The notes beneath the pieces were generated by a model. That model ran no database searches. It was not told the origin of the DNA and worked only from the letters and a program-made list of their open reading frames with translations. Source: Bacillota bacterium (GTDB lineage Bacteria > Bacillota > Clostridia > Lachnospirales > Bianqueaceae). From it: DNA of 64,000 nucleotides. The position numbers and the translations under genes were made by a program. The stretch covers positions 1 through 64,000 of the forward strand of contig JAFRZE010000003.1 in NCBI GenBank assembly GCA_017442735.1, written 5' to 3'. Positions 2-64,000 of the stretch are shown one piece after another. Numbering within the stretch: the first letter of the stretch is position 1; each line of letters begins with the position of its first letter.

Positions 2-19525
<19,524 letters not shown>

Positions 19526-31496: not shown

Positions 31497-31589
31497 ATGA
31501 TTACCTATGGTACATGATCCGGCCGCAGGTCTCGTCCAGTTGATGATCGGCTGCCGGCCGGCCCATATAAAATGAAAGGGAGAAAAACT

Positions 31590-34500
31590 ATGGCAAGAAA
31601 AATGAAGACCATGGACGGCAACAACGCAGCGGCGCATGTCAGTTACGCGTTTACTGAAGTTGCGGGCATTTACCCGATCACCCCGTCCAGCCCGATGGCC
31701 GACTACGTGGATCAGTGGTCCGCGCAGGGTCTGAAAAACATTTTCGGCACGACTGTTAAGGTTGCCGAGATGCAGTCTGAAGCCGGTGCGTCCGGTACCG
31801 TTCACGGTTCTCTGGCCGCAGGTGCTCTGACGACCACCTACACCGCTTCTCAGGGACTTCTTCTGATGATCCCCAACATGTACAAGATCGCTGGTGAACT
31901 CCTTCCCGGTGTCTTCCATGTATCCGCTCGTACAGTCGCGGCTCAGGCGCTGAACATTTTCGGTGATCACTCCGATGTGTATGCCTGCCGTCAGACCGGT
32001 TTCGCGATGCTCTGCGAGACCAACACCCAGGAAGTTATGGACCTCGGCGCGGTCGCTCATCTGGCAGCGATCAAAGGCCGTGTTCCGTTCCTGAACTTCT
32101 TCGATGGATTCCGTACTTCTCACGAGATCCAGAAGATCGAGATCTGGGATTATGATGATCTGAAAGAAATGGTCGACATGGATGCAGTTGCCGAGTTCCG
32201 TAAGAGAGCGCTGAATCCGGAGCGTCCCGTTATGCGCGGTTCTCACGAGAACGGCGATATCTTCTTCCAGCATCGTGAAGCTTCCAACAAGTACTATGAT
32301 GCTCTTCCGGCGATCGTCGAAGAGTACATGGACAAAGTCAATGCCAAACTCGGCACCAACTACAAACCGTTCAACTACTACGGTGCTCCCGACGCGGAAA
32401 AGATCATCATCGCCATGGGTTCCATCGTGGACGTAGCGGAAGAAGTTATCGACTACCTGACCGCCAAAGGCGAGAAGGTCGGTCTGGTCAAGGTTCGTCT
32501 GTACAGACCTTTCTGCGCGGACAAACTGCTGGCTGCCATTCCCGAGACCGTTAAGAAGATCGCGGTCCTTGACCGTACCAAAGAGCCCGGCGCGCTTGGC
32601 GAGCCCCTGTTCCTGGATGTCGTTACCGCTCTGGCGGAAGCCGGCAAGAATGATATCAAGGTCATCGGCGGCCGTTATGGTCTGGGTTCCAAAGATACGC
32701 CTCCGTCCAGCATCTTCGCTGTATATGACGAGCTGGCGAAAGACGCTCCCAAAGAGAGATTCACTCTCGGCATCAACGATGATGTCACCTATCTGTCCCT
32801 GGAAGAGAAACCCTCTCCCAACACCGCGGCAGAAGGCACCATCGAGTGCAAGTTCTGGGGTCTTGGCGGCGACGGTACTGTTGGCGCGAACAAGAACTCC
32901 ATCAAGATCATCGGCGACTATACCGACAAATACGTTCAGGCATACTTCCAGTATGACTCCAAGAAGACCGGCGGCGTGACCATTTCCCATCTGAGATTTG
33001 GTGACAAGCCGATCAAATCTCCCTACTATATCAACAAAGCAGACTTTGTTGCCTGCCATAATCCTTCCTACATTACCAAAGGCTTCAAGATCGTCAACGA
33101 CGTTAAACCCGGCGGTGTCTTCCTGATCAACTGCCAGTGGAGCCCGGAAGAGCTTTCCGAGCATCTGAATGCCGAGACCAAACGCTACATCGCGAAGAAC
33201 AACGTTCAGCTGTACACCATCGACGCGATCGATCTGGCACAGAAGGTCGGCATGGGCAAACGTACCAACACCATCCTTCAGTCCGCATTCTTCACCCTGG
33301 CAGAAGTCATGCCCAAGGAAGAAGCGATCCAGCACATGAAAGACGCTGCCAAGAAGTCCTACCTGAAGAAAGGTATGGATGTCGTTGAGAACAACTGGAA
33401 AGCGATCGACGCCGGCTCCGATGCCTTCGTGAAGATCACTGTTCCCGCAGACTGGGCTGACGCTGTCGACGCTCCCGCCGAGAACAAGCTGGCCGGTCCC
33501 GAAAAGCTGGTCAAGATGGTCGACAAGATCCTGAATCCGGTCGACAAGATGGACGGCGACTCTCTGCCGGTTTCCGTATTCATGGATCACGCAGACGGTA
33601 CCTTCGAGCAGGGCGCTGCCGCTTATGAGAAACGTGGCGTAGCCGTTAACGTTCCGGTTTGGAATGAGGCTACCTGTGTGGCTTGTAACAAGTGCGCGTT
33701 TGTCTGCCCGCATGCTACCATTCGTCCGTTCGCTCTTTCCGAGGCAGAAGCCGCTGCGGCTCCCGCGAACACCAAGTACGCTCCCAAAGCTGCTCTGGTC
33801 AACAAGGCCGGTTACAAGTTCACGCTGGCGATCAGCCCGCTGGACTGCATGGGCTGCTCCGTCTGTGTAGGCGTCTGCCCGACCAAGTCTCTGTCCATGG
33901 CTCCGATCGAGTCTCAGCTGGATCAGCAGCCGGTATTCGATTACGCGGTAGCAAACGTAACCGAGAAACCCGAACTGACCAAATCCATTACCGCTATCTC
34001 CAGCCAGTACAAGAAACCGCTGCTTGAGTTCTCCGGCTCCTGCGCAGGCTGTGCGGAAACCTCTTACGCTCGTCTGATCACCCAGCTGTTCGGTGAAAGA
34101 ATGTACATCTCCAACGCGACCGGTTGCTCCTCTATCTGGGGCGGCCCCGCGGCTACTTCTCCCTACACCACGAACTTCAAGGGTCAGGGTCCAGCCTGGG
34201 CGAACTCCCTGTTCGAGGACAACGCGGAGCATGGCTTCGGTATGTACCTTGGCCAGAAAGCGATCCGTAACCGTCTGGTCGACAAGGTGAAAGCCATTGT
34301 CGAGAAGACCGGCGATGAAGCGCTGAAGGCTGCCGGCGAAGCTTACCTCGCGACTCTGAACGACGGCGCCAAGAACCCGGCCGCGGCTGAGGCTCTGGTA
34401 GCTGCTCTCGAGAAGACCGAGTGCGGATGCGAAGAGAAGAAAGACATCCTTGAGAACAAAGAATATCTGGGCAAGAAATCTGTCTGGATCTTCGGTGGTG

Positions 34501-35141
34501 ACGGCTGGGCCTATGATATCGGCTTCGGCGGTCTGGATCATGTCCTGGCTTCCGGCGAAGATATCAACATCATGGTCTTCGATACCGAAGTTTACTCCAA
34601 TACCGGTGGACAGGCCTCCAAGGCTTCTCAGATCGGTCAGGTCGCTCAGTTCGCGGCTGCCGGTAAAGAGATCGCTAAGAAGAGCCTTTCCGAGATCGCT
34701 ATGAGCTACGGCTATGTATACGTTGCTCAGATCGCGATGGGCGCTGACAACAACCAGACCCTGAAGGCTCTGCAGGAAGCGGAAGCTTATCCGGGACCGT
34801 CACTGGTCATCGGCTATGCTCCTTGTGAGATGCACTCCATCAAGGGTGGTATGGCGAACTGCCAGGCTGAGATGAAGAAAGCGGTCGATTGCGGCTACTG
34901 GAATCTGTTCCGTTACAACCCGGCTCTGAAGGCTGAGGGCAAGAACCCCTTCACGCTGGATTCCAAGGCTCCGGTTTCCGAGAACTACCGTGCATTCATC
35001 CTGAACGAGGCTCGTTACAGCGCGCTGACCCGTTCCTTCCCGGAGAGAGCAGAGACTCTGTTCGCGAAGGCCGAGGCTACCTCTGTCGCTCGTTACAAAC
35101 ACCTGCTGAGACTGAAAGATCTGTACGCGCCGGAAGAATAA
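31590..35141 (+). CDS. nifJ: Pyruvate:ferredoxin (flavodoxin) oxidoreductase
   Basis: 1183 residues from ATG 31590, which follows AAAGGGAG; an upstream in-frame ATG at 31572 is less well placed. This is the single-chain PFOR of anaerobes. Seen: domain I start AAHVSYAFTEVAGIYPITPSSPMA; two ferredoxin-type 4Fe-4S motifs CVACNKCAFVCP and CMGCSVCVGVCP; the proximal cluster cysteines in CAGCAE and NATGCSSI; and the TPP-binding GDGWAYDIG region. It decarboxylates pyruvate to acetyl-CoA and reduces ferredoxin. It is monocistronic by position, with its own promoter and a strong terminator. The 4Fe-4S clusters point to an anaerobe. Confidence 0.95.
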   Translation: MARKMKTMDGNNAAAHVSYAFTEVAGIYPITPSSPMADYVDQWSAQGLKNIFGTTVKVAEMQSEAGASGTVHGSLAAGALTTTYTASQGLLLMIPNMYKIAGELLPGVFHVSARTVAAQALNIFGDHSDVYACRQTGFAMLCETNTQEVMDLGAVAHLAAIKGRVPFLNFFDGFRTSHEIQKIEIWDYDDLKEMVDMDAVAEFRKRALNPERPVMRGSHENGDIFFQHREASNKYYDALPAIVEEYMDKVNAKLGTNYKPFNYYGAPDAEKIIIAMGSIVDVAEEVIDYLTAKGEKVGLVKVRLYRPFCADKLLAAIPETVKKIAVLDRTKEPGALGEPLFLDVVTALAEAGKNDIKVIGGRYGLGSKDTPPSSIFAVYDELAKDAPKERFTLGINDDVTYLSLEEKPSPNTAAEGTIECKFWGLGGDGTVGANKNSIKIIGDYTDKYVQAYFQYDSKKTGGVTISHLRFGDKPIKSPYYINKADFVACHNPSYITKGFKIVNDVKPGGVFLINCQWSPEELSEHLNAETKRYIAKNNVQLYTIDAIDLAQKVGMGKRTNTILQSAFFTLAEVMPKEEAIQHMKDAAKKSYLKKGMDVVENNWKAIDAGSDAFVKITVPADWADAVDAPAENKLAGPEKLVKMVDKILNPVDKMDGDSLPVSVFMDHADGTFEQGAAAYEKRGVAVNVPVWNEATCVACNKCAFVCPHATIRPFALSEAEAAAAPANTKYAPKAALVNKAGYKFTLAISPLDCMGCSVCVGVCPTKSLSMAPIESQLDQQPVFDYAVANVTEKPELTKSITAISSQYKKPLLEFSGSCAGCAETSYARLITQLFGERMYISNATGCSSIWGGPAATSPYTTNFKGQGPAWANSLFEDNAEHGFGMYLGQKAIRNRLVDKVKAIVEKTGDEALKAAGEAYLATLNDGAKNPAAAEALVAALEKTECGCEEKKDILENKEYLGKKSVWIFGGDGWAYDIGFGGLDHVLASGEDINIMVFDTEVYSNTGGQASKASQIGQVAQFAAAGKEIAKKSLSEIAMSYGYVYVAQIAMGADNNQTLKALQEAEAYPGPSLVIGYAPCEMHSIKGGMANCQAEMKKAVDCGYWNLFRYNPALKAEGKNPFTLDSKAPVSENYRAFILNEARYSALTRSFPERAETLFAKAEATSVARYKHLLRLKDLYAPEE

Positions 35142-35181: not shown

Positions 35182-35213
35182 AAGCCCGGGACTTTATGGT
35201 CCCGGGCTTTTTG
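35182..35213 (+). terminator. Strong intrinsic terminator after PFOR
   Basis: An 11-bp GC-rich inverted repeat (AAGCCCGGGAC / GTCCCGGGCTT) with a short loop, followed by TTTTT, 41 bases downstream of the stop. Confidence 0.93.
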
Positions 35214-35224
35214 TGTGCGTGCCG

Positions 35225-35478
35225 ATCTTGTTAACGTTATACTATCCGATAGCAAGAATGATTAAAAAAACATGAGAACCTTGCTACCACTATAGCAAGA
35301 TAGGCGATTTTTTCGAACTGACCTTGCTATTGCTGGGTCACTGAATAGCAAGGTGGAAAGCTAAATTGAGCAGACCTTGCTACGAAATTAGCAAGGTAAG
35401 TGGCTTTTTTTCTTGTATCTTGCTAAAGGTTAGCGGTTGTTTAGCAAGGAAGCCTGAAATAAACAAAGAATCTTGCTA
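35225..35478. repeat. 48-bp-phased palindromic array A (ACCTTGCTA/TAGCAAGGT)
   Basis: Eleven 9-bp half-sites at 35225, 35250, 35278, 35293, 35321, 35346, 35374, 35389, 35417, 35442 and 35470. The sequence alternates ACCTTGCTA-like and TAGCAAGGT-like, so each pair is a dyad. Loops within dyads are 16, 6, 16, 6 and 16 bases; every spacer between dyads is 19 bases. Dyad centres are therefore 48 bp apart and the pattern repeats every 96 bp. The end half-sites are degenerate. The array lies between the convergent PFOR and lipoprotein genes; the rest of the gap (35485-35573) holds nothing recognised. Confidence 0.9.
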
Positions 35479-35573
35479 GTGCTAGTCACATCGTATCAAG
35501 GGAGAGTAAGCGCTAATTAACGGAAATCCTTGCTTCAGGTCTTTGATATAGTCTTTTTTCTTATCATTGACAC

Positions 35574-35638: not shown

Positions 35639-36853
35639 TTAGTCCTCTGGCTTGATGCCGGTACCGCCACAGGCTTCGCATAAGCCGGTGCCACCGCAGT
35701 GACAAACAACGGTACCTTCGCCATCGCAGTCTTCACAAGTGACCATTCCGGTTCCGTCGCAGTGTGGACAGTCACGGACGCTGGTCCCGCCGCAGATCTG
35801 ACACTGGCCGGAGCCCTCACAAGTCGGACAGGGATCACCATCTTCGTTCAGGCCGCTGCCGTCGCAAGCATCACACAGACCGCCTTCACATTCACAGTCT
35901 TCATAACCTGCGCCATCACAGGAAGGACAGGGCATGACACCAGATCCGTCGCACCTATAGCAATGTTCACGGCCGGTTCCGTCACAGCGAGTACAGACAC
36001 CGGTTCCCTGGCAGACGCTGCAGCCTTCGTGTTCATCTCTAGGCTCACCGCCTTCTTCATTATCTTCGTCGTCAGCGTCGTCACCATCACCGTCATCGCC
36101 GTCGTTGTCTTCGGCATCTTCGTCCTCGTCGCCGTCTTTATTCTCGTCTTTGGCGTCTTCGTCGCTGTCTTCATCTTCATCCTTGTCGGATTCTTCCTCG
36201 CCTTCGTCTTCCGGCTGACCTTCAGACTCTTCGGTTTTCGGTTCTTCGGACTGCTGGGAAGGATCGGGAGCATACTGGACGACAGAATCAACTTCGATGG
36301 TCGGGACGATCGTCAGGCTGCGTTCCTTGGCGGTATCCTGCATACTCTTGTGCGCGCGGGACAGAAGATCCTGTGTCGCAGATTCGGTCTCAGTGGTACC
36401 GAGAAGGGTGATTTTGACATCCACACCTTCCTTCAGAAAACCGTCATCGATGGCGACCATGATCAGATCCTTCACAGCTTCGTTGAAAGGACGGTCAACG
36501 AACATCATGCGGCCTTCCGCATCCATCTTTTTGGCATCCTCATTTAGCGGTTCATAGGAAAAGACATCGCCGTTTTCATGCAGATAGAAAACAAAGTCCG
36601 GATTGATCGTGACACGAACCGCATAGGCATAGACCTCAGGCGCTTTGGCAAGCACTTCGTCCGTTTTCTGGAGGGTTTCCGGCTGTGCCGGAGCCGTGCT
36701 GCTTTCGGTCGTGTCCGTTTTTGTCGAATTCTCTGTAATGATGGGAACATCCTGATTGTCTTGCTGCTTGGTACATCCGGAGAGTGCGCCGGAAAAGGCC
36801 AGACAGGAGGATAAAATCAGGCAGAGTACCCATCTTTTTTTATTTGTAAACAT
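35639..36853 (-). CDS. Lipoprotein with acidic linker and about twelve CxxCxGxG-type zinc knuckles
   Basis: 404 residues. A signal peptide ends in the lipobox ALSGC (Cys at about residue 27), so it should be anchored outside the membrane. A folded segment follows (about 60-195, with ITLLGTTETESATQDLL), then a 55-residue Asp/Glu-rich stretch, then a Cys-rich C-terminal part of about 125 residues. That part repeats DnaJ-like CxxCxGxG units (CSVCQGTG, CTRCDGTG, CYRCDGSG, CPSCDGAG, CDACDGSG, CPTCEGSG and others); two copies have CxC in place of CxxC. DnaJ itself has four units, so this is about three times as many, on a secreted protein. A zinc-binding or redox/chaperone role is inferred; no J domain is present. 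RBS GGAAAGGA precedes the start. Confidence 0.8.
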   Translation of the reverse strand: MFTNKKRWVLCLILSSCLAFSGALSGCTKQQDNQDVPIITENSTKTDTTESSTAPAQPETLQKTDEVLAKAPEVYAYAVRVTINPDFVFYLHENGDVFSYEPLNEDAKKMDAEGRMMFVDRPFNEAVKDLIMVAIDDGFLKEGVDVKITLLGTTETESATQDLLSRAHKSMQDTAKERSLTIVPTIEVDSVVQYAPDPSQQSEEPKTEESEGQPEDEGEEESDKDEDEDSDEDAKDENKDGDEDEDAEDNDGDDGDGDDADDEDNEEGGEPRDEHEGCSVCQGTGVCTRCDGTGREHCYRCDGSGVMPCPSCDGAGYEDCECEGGLCDACDGSGLNEDGDPCPTCEGSGQCQICGGTSVRDCPHCDGTGMVTCEDCDGEGTVVCHCGGTGLCEACGGTGIKPED

Positions 36854-60142: not shown

Positions 60143-62031
<1,889 letters not shown>

Positions 62032-62107: not shown

Positions 62108-62136
62108 AGGAACTTTGCCATCACTTGATTGTCGAA

Positions 62137-62418
62137 TAGCAAGGTGAACTATTATTTTGAACTGACCTTGCTACCGTCGGGCTGTTGAATAGCAAGGTGA
62201 GCCGCCTATTTTGACAAACCTTGCTATTAGAATAGCAAGGTAGATTATTTTTATGAATCAACCTTGCTACCGCTAGAGTGCCAAATAGCAAGGTGAATTG
62301 CTTTTTTCTCCAAACCTTGCTACTGAAATAGCAAGGTGAACTATTATTTTGAACTGACCTTGCTACCGTCGGGCTGTTGAATAGCAAGGTGAGCCGCCTA
62401 TTTTGCCAAATCTTGCTA
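62137..62418. repeat. 48-bp-phased palindromic array B
   Basis: Twelve half-sites of the same 9-bp family as in the array at 35225: 62137, 62165, 62190, 62218, 62233, 62261, 62286, 62314, 62329, 62357, 62382 and 62410, with one more degenerate half before the first. Spacers between dyads are all 19 bases; loops alternate 16, 6, 16, 6, 16 from 62165. Segments of about 90 bp at 62137 and 62329 are nearly identical and lie exactly 192 bp apart, two super-periods. It again sits between convergent genes, so it fills the gap between atpC and the pseudouridine synthase. Confidence 0.92.
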
Positions 62419-62435: not shown

Positions 62436-63404
62436 TTATTGATCCAGGTCTACCTGGACATCCGAAGGCAGGAAAGCCATGAAGTCTTCCGGCGGTGGGG
62501 CGGTGATCTCCAGAGGCTCTTTCGTGAAGGGCTCCAGGCAGCGGATCTTCCAGGAATGAAGCATGGTGCGGGGAGCCGGCATGGAGGATATGGTGCCGGT
62601 ATATTCCTGATATAGCTGATCGCCCAGGAGGGGATGGCCGAGATGGGCGAAGTGCGTGCGGATCTGGTGGGTCCGGCCGGTGAGGAGATGGATCTTGACC
62701 AGGCTGATCTTTTCACCGGACACATCCAATACCTTGAGTACCTGGTATTCCGTACGTGCAGGTTTCCCGGACGGATCCGGTTTCATGAGGCGAAGAGGCC
62801 GACCGTTTTCTCCCAGCGGCGTATTCTCTCTGGTTTCGAGAAGGGGCTGGTCGATCAGGCCGGCTCCTTCCATTTCTCCGAGGACTAACGCGAGATAGAT
62901 TCGGGAAAGGGTGCCATCCGCGCGCTGCTTTTCCAGGATCGTGGCGGCGGGTGTGTTTCGGGTGACAGCGATGAGCCCGGACGTTTCCTTATCCAGCCGC
63001 CCGATCAGACGGACCGGCTCGGGATATAACGCCGCCAGATAATTGACCAGCGTATCATCATAATGACCATGTGCGGGATGGACTGCCATGCCGGAGGGCT
63101 TGTTGACCATCAATAGGTCATTGGAATGATAGAGGATGGAAAGATCACCTTCCGCGGGGACGACCGAAGGCCCCGTATCCGGCAGGGTGATCGTGATCTC
63201 GTCACCGGACAGGACAGGCGTTTTCATGGTAAAAAGGGGCTCAGCAGTCTTTCTCGCGGGTGACGCTTGAAAGACGAGAGCCCCTTTCAGGTTCAGAACG
63301 TGCCGGATCTGCCCGGCGCTTAAGAAACAGCGGTCTTTCAGGATCTGTCTCAGGGTAAGGCCCTGATCAGCTTCCGTGACGGTGTAGCGAATGATTTTTT
63401 CCAT
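62436..63404 (-). CDS. RluA-family 23S rRNA pseudouridine synthase
   Basis: 322 residues from ATG 63404. An S4-like start (TLRQILKDRCFLSAGQIRHVL) is followed by the catalytic core GRLDKETSGLIAVTRN (Asp as nucleophile) and the closing GRTHQIRTHFAHLGHPLLGD. It converts a uridine in rRNA to pseudouridine. The best guess is an RluD-type enzyme, but the site cannot be told from sequence. The start codon is one base after the stop of the upstream phosphatidyltransferase gene, so they are co-transcribed. Confidence 0.88.
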   Translation of the reverse strand: MEKIIRYTVTEADQGLTLRQILKDRCFLSAGQIRHVLNLKGALVFQASPARKTAEPLFTMKTPVLSGDEITITLPDTGPSVVPAEGDLSILYHSNDLLMVNKPSGMAVHPAHGHYDDTLVNYLAALYPEPVRLIGRLDKETSGLIAVTRNTPAATILEKQRADGTLSRIYLALVLGEMEGAGLIDQPLLETRENTPLGENGRPLRLMKPDPSGKPARTEYQVLKVLDVSGEKISLVKIHLLTGRTHQIRTHFAHLGHPLLGDQLYQEYTGTISSMPAPRTMLHSWKIRCLEPFTKEPLEITAPPPEDFMAFLPSDVQVDLDQ

Positions 63405-63405
63405 G

Positions 63406-64000
63406 TTATTTATAGTCGTGGAGGGTCGGGTCTTCAGGGTCGGGGACGATCGGGTCCGGATCGATCTTCTTGCCTCTGTCATCGACAGTCAGCGTGCCTT
63501 CGGTCCTGCCGTGCCATATGCCCCAGTAATTGTGTGCGTAAAGCATCAGGGTGACGATCATCCAGGTCCCGCAGAAAACGACCAGCGAGAGACGGATGTT
63601 TTCGGGCATCTGAGGAAAGACCAAAAGGAGAAGCAGCGTACCGTCCGTAATACCGGTACCGACTTTACCATACCATTTCGCGCCGCCGAATTTGAGATGT
63701 TTCTTGCGGATCGTCACGGCGCCGGCAATGGCCATAAAAGCTTCTTTGATGAATTCGATGGCGAACAAATACCAGAGCATCGGGTACCGGATACCCAGAC
63801 AGATGACCGCCGCGCCTTGTGTAAACTTATCAGCGACGGGATCGAGCAGGATGCCCAGTTCGGATACCTGGTTGAAAGCTCTGGCTGCCTTGCCGTCCAG
63901 GAAATCGGAAACGATGGACAAAACGAGACATAAAACAGCCCCGCTGTGGTTACCGGTCAGGTACTGGTAAATGAAGATCGGTATCAGTACAAACCGGATA
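63406..64000 (-). CDS. pgsA: CDP-alcohol phosphatidyltransferase, PgsA-like (5' end outside window)
   Basis: The frame runs off the window edge, so the start lies beyond 64000; a TTG at 63921 is not needed. The CDP-alcohol transferase motif DGKAARAFNQVSELGILLDPVADK (D-G-x2-A-R-x8-G-x3-D-x3-D) is complete. About four further membrane helices follow, with a polar C-terminal tail (DPDPIVPDPEDPTLHDYK). It most likely makes phosphatidylglycerophosphate from CDP-diacylglycerol and glycerol-3-phosphate. Confidence 0.85.
   Translation of the reverse strand, partial: IRFVLIPIFIYQYLTGNHSGAVLCLVLSIVSDFLDGKAARAFNQVSELGILLDPVADKFTQGAAVICLGIRYPMLWYLFAIEFIKEAFMAIAGAVTIRKKHLKFGGAKWYGKVGTGITDGTLLLLLVFPQMPENIRLSLVVFCGTWMIVTLMLYAHNYWGIWHGRTEGTLTVDDRGKKIDPDPIVPDPEDPTLHDYK

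Follow-up and report, generated by a model that had tools for sequence, protein, structure and literature searches.

Arrays of a short inverted word at fixed spacing in the intergenic DNA of a rumen Bacillota genome and its sister species

Downstream of the pyruvate:ferredoxin oxidoreductase (PFOR) gene in the 64,000-nucleotide stretch of DNA that we analysed (the window) lies an array of 11 half-sites, the word TAGCAAG (F) and its reverse complement CTTGCTA (R) set at fixed distances, and this array belongs to a family found in the genome of the window (G000; 83 contigs, 2.82 Mb) and in a sister species of the same genus (G006). The form of these arrays and its conservation are well supported, and we judge it slightly favoured (a probability of roughly 55%) that they are multi-site landing strips for a putative sequence-specific DNA-binding protein and most likely organise or insulate the chromosome, the chromosomal role being the least certain part of this reading. 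A preliminary description of the window had presented the array as a second copy of one at 62 kb with the same geometry; the observation was confirmed and proved far wider than first described, as it concerns a family of fixed-geometry arrays.

Results

Structure of the arrays in the window

Ten of the half-sites of the 35 kb array are perfect 7-mers and the outermost has one mismatch (Table 1). Their starts are separated by steps of 23, 30, 13, 30, 23, 30, 13, 30, 23 and 30 bases, and when the half-site is taken as 9 bases the linkers are 16 and 6 bases and the spacers 19 bases, exactly as first described. The 62 kb array, with its degenerate first half-site, shares this geometry. Of the two periods proposed initially, 96 bp (43 + 53) is real and 48 bp is not. 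Within the window there are nine CTTGCTA-N4-20-TAGCAAG pairs, against none in each of 100 dinucleotide shuffles. At the position of the probably decayed twelfth half-site the G006 ortholog of the 35 kb array has TAGAAAG at the exact distance (16-base gap). The window also holds tandem repeats at 1–199 and 16777–17038 whose periods are all divisible by three (18 bp × 11; 9-, 18- and 27-bp units), which are probably repetitive coding sequence.

Table 1. Positions in the window of the two arrays, their parts and their neighbours
Feature	Position	Strand	Remarks
PFOR gene	31572..35141	+	left neighbour of 35 kb array
Stem-loop with T run	35182..35209	.	after PFOR gene, just ahead of 35 kb array; − strand in the terminator listing, + strand T run read from sequence
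11-half-site array (35 kb)	35227..35478	.	opens with R* 35227–35233 (CTTGTTA)
Half-site starts, 35 kb array	F 35250, R 35280, F 35293, R 35323, F 35346, R 35376, F 35389, R 35419, F 35442, R 35472		
Unit 1, F-N23-R	35250..35286	.	37 bp
Unit 2, F-N23-R	35293..35329	.	preceded by 6-base linker
Unit 3, F-N23-R	35346..35382	.	preceded by 16-base linker
Unit 4, F-N23-R	35389..35425	.	preceded by 6-base linker
Unit 5, F-N23-R	35442..35478	.	preceded by 16-base linker
Twelfth half-site, TATCAAG	35494..35500	+	probably decayed; 15-base gap
Cys-rich protein gene, RsgI-like domain	35639..36853	−	right convergent neighbour of 35 kb array
ATP synthase epsilon gene (atpC)	61621..62031	+	left neighbour of 62 kb array
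Terminator-like stem-loop	62067..62099	+	between atpC and 62 kb array
Sister array (62 kb)	62124..62418	.	degenerate CTTGATT, then 12 perfect half-sites; linkers 6, 16, 6, 16, 6, 16
Pseudouridine synthase ORF	62436..63482	−	right convergent neighbour of 62 kb array

Number, distribution and genomic setting

The label of a second copy was mistaken, as the 35 kb array is one of 22 TAGCAAG clusters that a mismatch-tolerant search found on 12 contigs of G000. Among 295 genomes of the order, G000 has 102 exact matches to the 37-bp unit F-N23-R and G006 has 70, and none of the remaining 293 has more than one. A contig scan over 84,980 species with a 24-base core pattern, which may leave out records of the window's own genome, had as its sole match a water-buffalo rumen MAG (RGIG8018, 14 stretches). 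Comparison of orthologous loci, proposed at the outset, gave a divided answer in the sister species, where the PFOR ortholog keeps the array and its length and the atpC locus has no array; in G001, G003, G004 and G005 the array is absent from the loci found (the region downstream of PFOR in G001, G004 and G005; atpC in G003, G004 and G005). TAGCAAG arrays thus belong to the G000/G006 lineage, and elsewhere in the genus there are other words. The G006 atpC locus (L081) has, within about 320 bases of the atpC stop, a different repeat with TTTTTCAAAA and ACGCGT motifs, the G000 counterpart of that position being the 62 kb array. A phage or plasmid origin was rejected: phage records contained no match to the 35 kb array, plasmid records none to the 62 kb array, and viral contigs scanned by pattern yielded neither TAGCAAG nor TACTGCC arrays.

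The 21 parsed G000 arrays lie in intergenic DNA, two of them overlapping (by 59 and 49 bases) an ORF predicted by a crude caller. With gene orientations taken from the same crude ORF caller, 19 of the 21 could be classed by gap, and these comprise 10 convergent, 7 tandem and 2 divergent cases, against 21, 79 and 24 among 124 comparable gaps of 150–1200 bases (10/19 vs 21/124 convergent, p = 4e-4). The initial statement that the arrays lie at convergent 3' ends thus holds for both window arrays and as an enrichment, and fails as a general rule: convergent gene ends are favoured, not required. Array-free contigs of G000 sum to 1.96 Mb against a simulation mean of 1.48 Mb (p = 0.0015), but finding 11 of the 19 large contigs empty is not unusual (p = 0.15). 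Clustering of the proteins encoded near arrays, with families judged by eye from sequence, gave no recurrent DNA-binding or recombinase family and no recurrent partner gene. Two G006 contigs (C14, at the start of L036, and C64, at the end of L043) terminate inside arrays, and their flanks correspond to either side of a single G000 array (L034), which points to a probable assembly break there.

Conservation of words and distances

An array holds between 6 and 16 half-sites. Distances are exact in 340 of 347 cases over 33 parsed arrays, 21 in G000 and 12 in G006; this set leaves out a one-unit remnant in L032 and the G006 arrays L071/L156, L158, L048 and one in L201. The F-to-R distance is exactly 30 in 180 of 186 cases, and the R-to-F distance is 13 or 23 in 160 of 161, the two steps mostly alternating. 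In six arrays with orthologs in both species, half-sites are changed at 19 of 511 positions (3.7%) and spacers plus linkers at 258 of 788 (33%; spacers 136/416 with their ends and the A-run left out, linkers 122/372), with 64 of 67 gap lengths equal, although the chain parser, which admits half-sites with up to two mismatches and gaps within 1 base, is biased toward conserved words and lengths. Unconstrained alignments show the same conservation in four of the six pairs; L024/L044 is alignable only in register, and L158 is without the last units of L020. A-run positions are changed in 30 of 192 cases, and the linker positions adjoining the half-site are variable, the conserved part being the half-site of 7–9 nt. 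The flanks of these arrays have 98 substitutions and 7 gaps in 1126 aligned bases, a ratio that predicts about 21 length changes in the arrays against the three observed (Fisher's exact p = 0.0045). The early contention that sequence drifts while geometry stays is upheld by these six pairs.

The pairs differ in how far they have diverged: L026/L046, L019/L040 and the 35 kb array have changed little and L018/L041 and L020/L158 strongly, while the spacers of L024/L044 are near saturation (54/78), with 6 changes in the 194 aligned bases of the flanks. L044 resembles L033 (0.77) more than L024 (0.65), its ortholog by position, so modules appear to have been exchanged between arrays, and a module is common to L021 and L041 at 0.98 while the flanks of L041 match L018. 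Compared between arrays, spacers are close to random (mean identity 0.32), so this copying is mostly old, yet words and lengths persist. The amplification of a fixed unit length that was offered initially as an explanation does occur: there are 96-bp duplications inside arrays, and at a single locus units were gained or lost (one unit in G000, six in G006).

Other words on a similar unit

A word-blind detector, which looks for any 7-mer that recurs with its complement at a constant distance, reported seven loci in 940 kb of loci from G000, G004 and G006, against none in five Markov resamplings. Two of these were TAGCAAG arrays, and the others led to TGCTTTA (G000 and G006), TACTGCC and TCCCCCA (G004), and TTATACA and GCCCCAA (G000). 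The unit TACTGCC-N23-GGCAGTA occurs 29 times in G004 and is absent from the remaining six genomes of the genus; of the 295 genomes of the order, the 294 besides G004 have it no more than once each. Its arrays have linkers of 5 and 23–25 bases (mostly 24–25), and the five that were read by eye have one 5-base linker each, with the flanking units pointing away on both sides. TGCTTTA-N23-TAAAGCA occurs seven times in G000, ten times in G006 and in none of the other five genus genomes. Sampled genomes of the genus gave single, weaker loci of TCGAGGA and GTACACA (G003) and TGACAAG (G005), with spacers mostly of 22–25 bases, and the samples of G001 gave a repeat of a different kind. The genus carries a class of such array families with species-private words. 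There is one clear case of different words at the same site (L195 in G004 and L028 in G000, which both immediately follow the 3' end of the same PLP-enzyme gene); this is about what chance could give and is not counted as support.

TGCTTTA arrays often have three units, F-23-R-24-F-23-R-5-F-23-R (L097, 10820–10959; L049, 537–676; L201, L202 and L196), in which the 24-base linker is conserved and a long near-perfect inverted repeat spans the 5-base linker, and some directly adjoin TAGCAAG units. In G004 (C134; L162, about 15838–16310) there are about 11 near-identical 42-bp tandem units with TCCCCCA-N5-TGGGGGA palindromes. The intergenic DNA of G001 has dense short repeats, among them ACAACTT with a period of 34 (L208, 16343–16440) and, in the last ~150 bases of L211, intergenic GTGAGTTT/AAACTCAC repeats.

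Spacer composition, pairing and helical phase

A central run of at least four A or T is present in 150 of 173 unique TAGCAAG spacers (shuffle mean 31.9) and 44 of 45 unique TACTGCC spacers (shuffle mean 4.8), in 13 of 26 TGCTTTA spacers (shuffle maximum 14) and in none of six TCGAGGA spacers. Symmetric pairing within spacers is below that of a control in which halves were dealt from different spacers (0.292 vs 0.353, z −5.3, column shuffles), and linkers and neighbouring spacers showed no excess complementarity in column shuffles; given this lack of extra pairing, the arrays look like a protein-binding lattice at the level of DNA, not RNA. F-to-F distances over all words fall at 41–44, 50–54, 60–63 and 72–75 bp, near 4, 5, 6 and 7 turns (61 bp is 5.8 helix turns). 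Phase concentration at 10.5 bp is 0.72 (R), with p = 0.007 for nine collapsed distance classes and p = 0.029 for seven, the collapsing being the analyst's choice and the test weak once families are collapsed, so that helical phasing is supported, not strongly.

Discussion

A cooperative DNA-binding protein would be expected to select for this combination: lengths that stay fixed while the sequence varies, conserved words, a centre that can bend, and distances near whole turns. From these features we infer the protein, its cooperativity, a bend and a chromosomal role. In the proposed mechanism the half-site would be the recognition word of the putative protein, and the 37-bp unit would present a pair of inverted words separated by 23 bp, in most cases with a bendable A/T run at the centre. 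The linkers would keep each forward word close to a whole number of helix turns from the next, which would let bound subunits line up on one face of the DNA and cooperate. Some 20 such nucleoprotein sites in intergenic gaps, preferably convergent, might then organise or insulate the chromosome locally; with this many sites, biased to convergent ends, a structural or insulating role seems likelier than the control of a single gene, and a nucleoid-organising or insulating site is our best guess. That a second species has much the same spacing with a different word also suggests landing strips for a putative DNA-binding protein. Against this reading count the lack of any binding protein found near the arrays, the nine arrays in tandem or divergent gaps, and an A/T run that is weak with TGCTTTA and missing with TCGAGGA; in addition, module copying between loci alone would be able to keep lengths for a time.

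Several known systems invite comparison. MatP and RacA act at matS and ram sites, which are single short palindromes or loose clusters; the arrays resemble these in offering about 20 sites per chromosome, possibly unevenly spread, to one (here putative) DNA-binding protein, and differ in being rigid. The sopC, parC and iteron elements have several binding sites in helical register, and the TCCCCCA array of G004 (42-bp period) looks most similar to these; however, they occupy one locus per replicon beside partition or replication genes, whereas we find about 20 chromosomal loci. The closest known form is REP/BIME, with which the arrays share short dispersed intergenic elements in alternating orientation, species-specific sequences and module duplication; length constancy, tag and transposase link do not fit. 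In the sections of the literature drawn on here, REPs are palindromes of 20–40 bp with a GTAG or CGTC tag (PMC3733652), RAYT genes are flanked by REPs and inter-REP segments vary in length (PMC2817692, PMC3733652), and BIMEs are reported as binding sites of IHF and gyrase (PMC2817692). The element here is a half-site of 7–9 bp, and its distances are constant for each word, with a 23-bp spacer across most words. A search for Y1_Tnp in the genus found one gene in G000, with no TAGCAAG in its 3.3 kb locus, and likewise in G006, and a RAYT/REP system was rejected, the Y1 transposase-like gene of G000 not being flanked by arrays. In G004 (C122; L167, 526, 1045 and 2365–2366) inverted GGGGACGG repeats flank a Y1 transposase-like gene, the layout expected of RAYT and REP, and a related AACACAGGGGACGG repeat lies downstream of atpC in the same genome (L082). 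The part of the RepRanger paper drawn on here (PMC12306157) held nothing bearing on this genus, and a search of the open-access literature, with most subscription papers outside its scope, found no account of such arrays.

Of the rival explanations, we consider it unlikely, though worth serious attention, that the arrays are a BIME-like non-autonomous mobile repeat, in which a transposase or recombinase would read the half-sites and copy units and modules among intergenic sites, the geometry arising from its complex and bringing the host no benefit. The modules shared across loci, the gain or loss of units, the adjoining of TGCTTTA and TAGCAAG at one locus and the species-private words, which the portion of the REP literature drawn on here also reports (PMC2817692), all favour it. 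However, the sole Y1 transposase-like gene of G000 (C18) has no flanking TAGCAAG half-sites within 1.5 kb, such a gene is above cut-off in six of the seven genus genomes and weaker in the seventh, so its presence does not track the word, and words and lengths have outlasted copying that the near-random spacers mark as mostly old. Module sharing and the 96-bp duplications could likewise come from a neutral tandem repeat whose geometry is kept only through unit copying within and between arrays, by slippage and recombination, but this would conserve spacers too and not words alone, and the nearly tenfold more frequent change of spacers than of half-sites makes it distinctly improbable.

We find it very hard to credit that the arrays act in RNA, as bidirectional terminators or structured 3' ends built of R-N6-F hairpins: such a hairpin can form a stem of 9–10 bp, two such stems score as terminator-like (the terminator listing includes two weak array stems and not the others) and convergent 3' ends are preferred, but both window arrays are already preceded by separate terminator-like stems, a terminator needs no fixed lengths of 16 and 19 bases, spacers and linkers have no extra pairing, and known Rfam RNAs were set aside, with no match in the window at gathering score. 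Short repeats with variable spacers of fixed length and degenerate edge repeats also recall a guide-RNA-type array (CRISPR or TIGR), a reading to which we give next to no credence. TIGR arrays, in the part of the source drawn on here, have two distinct alternating repeats of 8–12 nt, 9-nt spacers and an adjoining tas gene (PMC12045711), whereas the arrays here have one word in two orientations, gaps of 6, 16 and 19 nt, and spacers that hold an A/T run and drift base by base between orthologs; TIGR-Tas was excluded, as no Nop-domain (Tas; PF01798) protein was found in the seven genus genomes by a search that was positive in four control archaea.

Returning to binding by a protein, we suggest tentatively, and at somewhat less than even odds, that the class as a whole may consist of genus-wide protein-binding arrays in which a scaffold (inverted words 23 bp apart, a central A/T run and a periodicity near whole turns) is conserved and the 7-bp word is swapped between species, some 10–20 loci and the putative DNA-binding protein having changed specificity together. 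If these proposals are true, the arrays would be a bacterial chromosome element whose distances are passed on more strictly than most of its sequence, and TAGCAAG, TACTGCC and TGCTTTA would form a natural set of specificities on one scaffold, showing how a multi-site DNA-binding system adopts a new word at many loci and directing attention to a nucleoid or mobile-element protein of rumen Bacillota that is new to science.
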